Positions 20,763 to 22,902 of a DNA stretch of 64,000 nt are shown piece by piece. Source of the DNA: Chloroflexota bacterium (lineage in GTDB: Bacteria > Chloroflexota > UBA11872 > VXOZ01); the NCBI GenBank assembly GCA_026710945.1, contig JAPOQA010000014.1:1-64000 (forward strand). The letters are read 5' to 3'. A program made the position numbers and the translations under genes. The notes under the pieces are model-generated. The model saw only the letters and a list, made by a program, of their open reading frames with translations. It searched no databases and was not told where the DNA came from. Every line of letters starts with the position of its first letter. Position 1 is the stretch's first letter.

Positions 20763-21153
20763 GCTGAGTCCCTGGCAGTGTTAACACGATGACCACTACG
20801 GCAGCACGCTTGAATTGGCTACATTATGTTTGGAATTCGCGGCCCGGTGCTGCCTCTTGAAAACTTTACATAACAGTCTTACAAAGGGGACTCCGTATCC
20901 CCTTCAATCCATAGCGCTTCCTATGGCTGAGATCCTCGTGCACGGGCAGGAGGGAGCCCTGAAGACACCAGCGACACATTCGCTGATTATATGTACGGTA
21001 CATCTTTCTGTCTGCTACTGCAATGGCGCGGAGCATTGGACGGGAGCACTGCTCTTCTTGCAGTGGTTCGAGCGCTGAATGGCTCAAGATTGGGCTGGCA
21101 ATGTGCTACCATGCAGGCAAGAATCGTACGCAGAACTTGGACGTTGAGCGCAG
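20763..21153. other. Divergent intergenic region
   Basis: A 391-base gap between the leftward MFS gene and the rightward sigma-propeller gene. One hairpin is evident, AAGGGG-ACTCCGTAT-CCCCTT at 20884-20904, with no T tract. No open frame or known RNA motif was recognised. It must contain the promoter of the sigma-propeller gene, which could be self-dependent. Confidence 0.4.
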
Positions 21154-22902
21154 ATGCTAGCTAATCGGGGACGAATTCTCGCGGCAGCCGAGAGCGGCGA
21201 TCGAGACGCTTTTCTTGGGCTCTACGATCAGTTCGCCCCCATGCTCTACCGCTTCTCGTTTTGGCTCACCGGTAATGAGAGTGAGGCGCGCGAGCTAGTC
21301 ATCGCGATTTTCCGCCGGGCCTACCGCGCGATCAGCAAGCGGCCCCGCAACGTTGTGTTGGACACCTGGTTCTATCGGATGGCCGTGCGAACGTATCTCG
21401 CGTCAGCGCGGTGGCACAGGCTTACCCGGCGCGCGCCTGGGCCGGTGGAGGTTGAGGATCGCACGACTGCGTGGCGCAGAGCCACTCTCGCGCTGCCCCC
21501 GCGACTGCGGGTCGTCTGGCTGTTATCTCTTGCTGAAGGCATGCCGCAGAGTCAGACTGCGGAAGCGTTGGGCACGTCTCTTGACCGCGTGGAAACTTTG
21601 CTTGAGAGGGCACGTTCGGAATTCCGCGCGCCGGATTCTGAGGCCGATCGCGGCTCTGTGGAGCGTGCCATGCGTCAGCTTGGGGCGCCGCGTCCTGGCG
21701 CCACCCTCAGGGGTGAGGTCGCCGCTGCGCTCGGCACTGGCGATTCCACTGTTCGCTCTCGCGTCATGCAGGTCGGAATCGCGCTGGTAGTGCTTGCACT
21801 CCTTATCTCGGTTGGCTTTTCGCTTCTGCGCGGTCCGGAGGACACCGAGTTGACGCCGGAGCAGGTAGAGGCTCAGCCACCGACTATCGTCTTGCTCGGC
21901 GTTGCCGACACCGGTGCGCTCATCGCTTTCAATCCCAAGGACTTGAAGCCGTCGACTGTCACCGGCGTGGGCGGAGAGCCGCGCGCGCTTGCAGTATCTG
22001 CGGATAGGAAAACCCTCTTCATCTTGCAGGAAGAGGGCCTGCTCGCCGTAGACGCCCAGTCGCAGCAGGTGGGCCGGCTCCTCGAGTTGCCGTCCCAAGA
22101 TCTGAGTAGTCTATCGGTGATTGGGCAGTACCTGGTGATGGGTTCGGAGACCGCAGCCAGCTTGTTGGTGATGGATGAAAATGATGAGGTCGTGATGGAG
22201 ATTTCATTGCCTTGGGCTGTAGACCGTCTTGTGCCTCTTGGTGAGGATTCACTTCTCGCCGTCGCAATTGACCGAACGCAAATGGTGCGTGTGATGTTGG
22301 GCTCTGCACGTGTTGACAAGGCAATAGCTATTGGTGACGGTCTGGTGATTGGCGCAATTGTTCACGCCGCCGACGGAGTCTTGGCCTATGTGACCACTCC
22401 GGAGACTGAAGAAATATGGCGCGTTGCACTAGACTCCGGACAGGCAATGCGGCTGGCAACAGATGCGGCAGGACGCGCCACGCATGGAGTGATCAACGCT
22501 GATGGCTCAGCCCTCTTCTTGAGCAGTCAAACTGGGCCTCCTCCAGCAGAACCTGCTGAGGATTCCGATTCGGACGCGGATGTCAAAAGCAGAGTTCCTC
22601 CTGTCAGGACCACCACAAAAGAAGCTTCAGATGCAGACGCCACCGCAGATGAGGCCGCTGTAGCAGACGAACTTCCGGCTCTCACGATGATCAGTACAAC
22701 CGACGGAAGCGTGGAGAGAACGTTATGGCAGAGCGGCGGCCTGACCCAATTGACCCTCGATCCAGCACGTAACGCACTCTACGCGCTCGCACCGCACGCA
22801 AGCGCCATTCTCGTGCTCGACTCACGTACGCTCCACGTGCGCAATGTCGTGCCGCTTGCCGTACGCCCCGTGGCATTCACTCTCGTAGCGGGGCCGAACT
22901 AA
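21154..22902 (+). CDS. ECF sigma factor fused to a transmembrane helix and extracytoplasmic beta-propeller
   Basis: A 582-residue one-protein signalling candidate. Residues about 8-90 match sigma region 2 (DRDAFLGLYDQFAPMLYRFS, EARELVIAIFRRAYRA, then LDTWFYRMAVRTYLA). Residues about 110-158 match region 4 (LPPRLRVVWLLSLAEGMPQ, TAEALGTSLDRVETLLERAR), including the helix-turn-helix. Residues 205-225 form one membrane helix (VGIALVVLALLISVGF). Residues about 244-582 form a YncE-like beta-propeller with a Ser/Asp/Ala-rich insertion near 470-510. Known ECF factors are usually separate from their membrane anti-sigma partners; here the sensor-like half is on the same chain. No separate anti-sigma gene is adjacent. 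Whether it still binds promoter DNA is unknown. No strong Shine-Dalgarno sequence is seen. Confidence 0.8.
   Translation: MLANRGRILAAAESGDRDAFLGLYDQFAPMLYRFSFWLTGNESEARELVIAIFRRAYRAISKRPRNVVLDTWFYRMAVRTYLASARWHRLTRRAPGPVEVEDRTTAWRRATLALPPRLRVVWLLSLAEGMPQSQTAEALGTSLDRVETLLERARSEFRAPDSEADRGSVERAMRQLGAPRPGATLRGEVAAALGTGDSTVRSRVMQVGIALVVLALLISVGFSLLRGPEDTELTPEQVEAQPPTIVLLGVADTGALIAFNPKDLKPSTVTGVGGEPRALAVSADRKTLFILQEEGLLAVDAQSQQVGRLLELPSQDLSSLSVIGQYLVMGSETAASLLVMDENDEVVMEISLPWAVDRLVPLGEDSLLAVAIDRTQMVRVMLGSARVDKAIAIGDGLVIGAIVHAADGVLAYVTTPETEEIWRVALDSGQAMRLATDAAGRATHGVINADGSALFLSSQTGPPPAEPAEDSDSDADVKSRVPPVRTTTKEASDADATADEAAVADELPALTMISTTDGSVERTLWQSGGLTQLTLDPARNALYALAPHASAILVLDSRTLHVRNVVPLAVRPVAFTLVAGPN

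Follow-up and report, generated by a model that had tools for sequence, protein, structure and literature searches.

ECF sigma factors with regulatory extensions make up at least 26 groups (PMC8999054), and membrane-anchored sigma fusions have been described in ECF48, ECF52, ECF53 and, in the form of IutY, in ECF243 (PMC8999054); as a principle, the membrane-anchored sigma fusion is thus already known. For IutY and ECF48/52/53 alike, activation occurs, or is expected to occur, through proteolysis (PMC8999054, PMC5826349). IutY of Pseudomonas putida unites the sigma factor and a membrane-bound regulator in one chain, from which cleavage by Prc/RseP frees the sigma part (PMC8999054), and SCO4117, an ECF52 protein of Streptomyces coelicolor, combines a zinc finger, a membrane region, a proline-rich stretch and a carbohydrate-binding domain (PMC5826349). 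WD40-type extensions have been described in ECF57 (PMC8999054), and the ECF-WD40 proteins of Planctomycetes were partly recovered in detergent-soluble fractions (PMC8567305). As for anti-sigma moieties, class I domains measure 101 +/- 33 residues (PMC7406223), and class II, CnrY-like segments wrap around the outer face of their sigma factor (PMC8103513).

The gene addressed here lies in a window of 64,000 nucleotides (the whole stretch of DNA analysed, positions 1 to 64,000 of contig JAPOQA010000014.1, assembly GCA_026710945.1, from a Chloroflexota bacterium) and encodes an ECF-type sigma part, a membrane helix and a propeller in a single chain. The initial annotation did not recognise a propeller sensor on the outer side as a characterised arrangement, a statement that is too strong given the ECF48/52/53, IutY/ECF243 and ECF57 ECF-WD40 fusions already described (PMC8999054, PMC5826349, PMC8567305). 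What is new is the combination of a YVTN/YncE-like propeller with the lack of a zinc finger and with a linker that leaves no room for a class I anti-sigma domain; new as well are the phylum, Chloroflexota, and the fact that in 4/6 genomes of the genus the fusion holds the only detectable ECF-type region 2.

Results

The gene spans 21154..22902 (plus strand, as do all its features given below; stop codon included) and codes for 582 amino acids. Its reading as one chain with sigma regions 2 and 4, a single transmembrane helix and an extracytoplasmic propeller, put forward from the sequence at the outset, is supported by Pfam, hydrophobicity, charge and propeller matches, the topology being a predicted one, and the observation of a sigma-TM-propeller single chain is confirmed. 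A frameshift, an assembly artefact and a chance ORF were ruled out by the ORF being intact in six independent genomes with synteny kept. Regions 2 and 4 follow each other in the order expected for ECF (group 4) sigma factors and both exceed the Pfam gathering scores: region 2, at residues 23-84 (21220..21405), reaches 28.1 bits with Sigma70_r2 (cut-off 24), and region 4, at residues 108-155 (21475..21618), 40.9 bits with Sigma70_r4_2 (cut-off 25.7). These sigma domains are the only above-cut-off Pfam matches on the fusion. Profile comparison matched region 2 to the SigW/SigE/SigH structures; TIGR02937, the general ECF model of NCBIfam, scored 41.6 bits on residues 19-157, just under its cut-off of 42.9, and the PhyR_sigma-like model gave a weak match of 18.2 bits, also under cut-off.

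One strong hydrophobic helix occupies residues 207-225 (21772..21828), with a Kyte-Doolittle mean of 2.77 (2.2-2.8 across the six orthologues), the next-best hydrophobic stretch sitting within the beta domain. It is followed by a short, acidic and variable stalk (residues 228-243, 21835..21882; 12% invariant). In the six orthologues the net charge runs from +6 to +11 before the helix and from -26 to -34 after it, and none of them has a Cys after the helix. This charge asymmetry, the acidic stretch behind the helix and the lack of extracytoplasmic Cys favour a predicted orientation that places the sigma part in the cytoplasm and the propeller outside the cell (N-in/C-out).

The extracytoplasmic domain consists of a first propeller part (residues 244-462, 21883..22539), identified by profile matches, predicted fold and Foldseek, a low-complexity acidic/Ser-rich loop inside the propeller (residues 463-507, 22540..22674; 4% invariant) and C-terminal blades (residues 508-582, 22675..22899; 60% invariant over 508-577), the latter being the best conserved extracytoplasmic portion. 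No propeller family passes the Pfam cut-off on this domain, WD40 families included, the nearest being YncE/YVTN types; YncE and PQQ-type propeller models match weakly in all six orthologues (best 9.5e-8), and a profile search retrieved the YVTN propeller 1l0q and YncE 3vgz. These surface-layer YVTN and YncE propellers are the closest solved relatives of the domain, although they carry no sigma domain and share only about 10-13% identity with the fusion. The predicted fold is all-beta, and Foldseek searches with two predicted models, both shallow and of moderate confidence (mean pLDDT 55 and 64), returned overwhelmingly propellers at E about 1e-9 to 1e-8. The predictions thus support a propeller as fold class, with a blade number of about 6-7 that is tentative given the moderate confidence of the models. 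Two species of the genus also encode a TM-anchored YncE-like propeller without sigma domain (L046:1074-2708 and L047:12-1646), whose later blades resemble the C-terminal blades of the fusion (35% over 68 residues).

Full-length 1:1 orthologues occur as one copy per genome in all six genomes of the genus, the other five being 59-69% identical to the protein of the window. Wherever the contig reaches, the gene order is kept: glycosyltransferase 9, NIF3, a divergent MFS gene, the fusion, a TIM-barrel isomerase, SDR and Ldh_2. The named records with orthologues are Chloroflexota MAGs. Outside the genus no full-length relative was detected among 400 sampled Chloroflexota genomes (1/224 genera positive) or in other members of the class, a scan of genome contigs found the fusion in the same genus only, and plasmid records yielded matches to the sigma domains and no full-length relative. 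The phylogenetic spread of the architecture, as far as these 400 genomes tell, is so far confined to one Chloroflexota genus.

Within the gene, pN/pS is 0.23 in region 2, 0.22 in region 4 and 0.23 in the linker, 0.40 over most of the propeller, 0.235 in the C-terminal blades and 0.55 in the loop; about 59% of sigma-domain positions are invariant across orthologues. These ratios indicate that the ORF is under purifying selection and, because regions 2 and 4 stay at about 0.22-0.23, that the sigma half is not decaying.

Between sigma region 4 and the helix lie about 45 residues, 43 of which (residues 161-203, 21634..21762) form a conserved cytoplasmic linker with predicted helices at 162-177 and 185-193. 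With 56% of its positions invariant and a pN/pS of 0.23 it is constrained like the sigma domains, which suggests a functional segment, not a mere spacer. In the six orthologues the linker has no His, no conserved Cys and no Hx3Cx2C, and hence no zinc-binding anti-sigma motif; a conserved Cys is in fact lacking anywhere in the fusion. With its 43 residues it is nowhere near the length of a class I anti-sigma domain (101 +/- 33); its length and two predicted helices would fit a class II CnrY-like anti-sigma segment.

The usual zinc-binding anti-sigma domain is zf-HC2. No zf-HC2 protein was detected in the six genus genomes with a 35-residue model of limited sensitivity, so that within this sensitivity a zinc-finger anti-sigma factor acting in trans was discarded, and no separate anti-sigma gene is found near the fusion gene. 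Sigma factors were counted per genome by family searches. In four of the six genomes, including that of the window (98% complete), region-2 matches comprise only the fusion and one strong primary-sigma-like match; the remaining two have one further ECF of about 205-210 amino acids. The genome of the window also encodes a divergent sigma-like protein of 326 residues (L054:2158-3138, minus strand) that adjoins a LexA-like gene and has a good region 4, through which alone it was detected. Given the lack of zf-HC2 and, in four genomes, of any other ECF region 2, the fusion has to be controlled either from within its own chain or by some unknown means. Members of Peptidase_M50, the site-2 protease family, are encoded in 6/6 genus genomes, an unspecific match, the family being present in 14/14 control genomes too. 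The joining of sensor and transcription factor without an anti-sigma protein, as first claimed, therefore holds in part: the protein is best read as a membrane-held sigma fused to its own sensor, with no anti-sigma gene nearby and no zf-HC2, but the principle had already been described.

Residues were compared with 39 reference ECF sequences, 37 from relatives together with sigma-E of E. coli and SigW of B. subtilis, which served for residue numbering. In all six orthologues the Gln of region 2.2 is replaced by Val/Ile and the next acidic residue by Ala, Asn80 of region 2.4 by Arg/Lys, and, in region 4.2, Arg171 by Glu/Asp and Thr169 by Arg (E. coli sigma-E numbering). For sigma-70, residues of region 2.2 have been linked to core binding (PMC4383634). 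Some of these positions vary in the references as well, since in the single-domain ECFs of the phylum Gln occupies its column in 67% (Ala 13%, Arg 10%) and Asn in 69% (Arg 26%), and the losses are therefore not diagnostic. The other ECF consensus positions are mostly kept and strongly conserved among the orthologues. In a comparison that is rough, the references having been gathered partly by similarity to the fusion, the orthologues show 11-14 rare deviations at 38 conserved ECF columns versus 0-12 in reference ECFs, and leave-one-cluster-out scoring with an ECF profile gave them 97-101 bits versus 107-201, the lowest of the compared ECFs. Loss of core- and DNA-binding residues, which had been named as the mark of a merely structural domain, thus gives a mixed picture, with residues of 2.2, 2.4 and 4.2 replaced in 6/6 and most of the consensus kept. 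Core-polymerase binding and promoter recognition by the sigma part are putative functions.

About 50 bases before the start codon, in the stretch that separates the gene from the divergent MFS gene, the block TGTGCTACYATGCA (21102..21115, plus strand) is kept upstream of all orthologues and reads as a general extended -10 element (TGnTACYAT). When orthologues were compared, no ECF-type -35 was conserved ahead of TGTGCTACYATGCA, nor any ECF-type -35/-10 pair upstream of the gene. The block TGTGCTACYATGC, allowing one mismatch, has 10 copies in the genome versus 3 for a reversed control pattern; few copies lie near plausible start codons, the genes that follow being unrelated, and several copies are not followed by an ORF. 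A regulon built on TGTGCTACYATGC was rejected, the copies preceding unrelated genes and forming no convincing set. The self-recognised promoter shared with other genes that the initial annotation envisaged is consequently not supported, no shared ECF-type promoter being found. On the minus strand, a promoter-like CAGACA-17-TATAAT pair (window 20986-21014) faces the divergent MFS gene and overlaps a conserved near-palindrome, TGTACGGTACA.

Discussion

The plan of the fusion appears to be that of ECF52, in which an ECF sigma factor, a membrane helix and an extracytoplasmic ligand-type domain share one chain and for which proteolytic release has been proposed (PMC5826349, PMC8999054). ECF52, however, is described as restricted to Actinobacteria and combines a zinc finger with a proline-rich stretch and a domain that binds carbohydrates, whereas the present protein, from Chloroflexota, has no zinc finger and bears a propeller instead of the carbohydrate module. 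With ECF48, ECF52 and ECF53 it shares the C-terminal TM helix but not the zinc-finger (ZAS) domain before it. Comparable are the ECF57 proteins of Planctomycetes, ECF sigma factors with WD40-type repeats in a C-terminal extension (PMC8999054); they are described as acting via protein interaction and have two conserved Cys linking sigma 2 and sigma 4, whereas the fusion has no conserved Cys and a propeller nearer to YVTN/YncE than to WD40. IutY, in turn, includes an anti-sigma factor in its chain and is part of a siderophore surface-signalling system, neither of which was detected for the fusion. Since zinc finger, carbohydrate module and actinobacterial origin are lacking on the one side and the paired Cys on the other, its sequence places it under neither ECF52 nor ECF57.

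Fused proteins of related design occur elsewhere in the phylum. A sister family of the same class (L036:1396-3591, L037:1849-4044 and L038:2450-4678; 732-743 residues) likewise has an ECF-like N-terminus, one membrane helix and an extracytoplasmic domain, but this domain is VWA instead of a propeller, the sigma domains are degenerate and under the Pfam cut-offs, and there is no orthology beyond the sigma part. An ORF from another part of the phylum, which runs to the contig end (L043:1-1383, minus strand), joins sigma 2, sigma 4, zf-HC2 and a TM helix. The existence of this ORF and of the VWA family suggests repeated origins of such fused sigma proteins.

Starting from what is directly observed in architecture, predicted topology, conservation, lack of zf-HC2 matches and presence of M50, it can be proposed that the fusion is a membrane-tethered, one-chain ECF-type regulator that senses the envelope, is held inactive by its anchor and linker and is freed by intramembrane proteolysis, a proposal that could equally well prove right or wrong. 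The extracytoplasmic propeller would bind or monitor something in the envelope, and the two-helix juxtamembrane linker together with the anchor would keep sigma 2 and sigma 4 off RNA polymerase and DNA. A signal would then free the sigma part, most likely through regulated intramembrane proteolysis, for which the site-2 protease family in 6/6 genomes could provide the enzyme, and the freed part may direct RNA polymerase to a small regulon.

The replaced residues bear on whether the fold is still that of a sigma subunit. It could instead be a protein- or DNA-binding module with the propeller as its input, e.g. a mimic like the sigma-like domain of PhyR, which titrates a partner; we regard this as a genuine but unlikely alternative. 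The loss of the 2.2 Gln/acidic pair, the 2.4 Asn and the 4.2 Arg/Lys in all six orthologues, the excess of rare deviations and the weak PhyR_sigma-like match would fit it, but the lost positions vary among single-domain ECFs of the phylum too, most of the ECF consensus is invariant with region 4 well over its cut-off, and a PhyR-type mimic would have no visible partner in a genus where no other ECF region 2 is detected in four of six genomes and none has zf-HC2. That the sigma look-alike serves as a non-polymerase output module of a membrane sensor, after an almost complete loss of true ECFs in these bacteria, is a rather doubtful version of the idea. A decaying sigma remnant on what is now merely an anchored surface propeller would agree with the lowest sigma score among the compared ECFs and with the unfused TM-anchored propellers of two genus genomes, but a pN/pS in regions 2 and 4 well below the value for the bulk of the propeller, and about 59% invariant sigma positions among orthologues of such modest overall identity, make it extremely improbable; the selection data largely refute it.

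The proposed release from the membrane has its own competitor, a regulator that is never released and whose sigma/HTH part acts at the membrane as in CadC/ToxR-like one-component systems, the signal passing through the TM helix as a conformational change. The well-conserved region 4 HTH, a layout of single TM helix and C-out sensor suited to such a function, and the fact that no protease site was identified in the fusion speak for it. Both sigma regions are, however, equally conserved, a constraint not required of a regulator working through its HTH alone, and the described membrane-anchored sigma fusions use, or are expected to use, proteolysis (PMC8999054), so that we hold this explanation to be quite improbable.

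If the tethered, releasable sigma factor is active, a single gene would supply sensor, anchor and transcription factor and do without a zinc-finger anti-sigma domain, and it would take no more than a membrane anchor and a short conserved linker to hold a sigma factor off. As the sole detectable ECF-type sigma of most species in the genus, its signal would define their envelope response. The VWA fusion of the sister family suggests that the class builds such proteins repeatedly. The fusion is real, conserved and uncommon, and it would be more interesting still if its sigma domain proved inactive.
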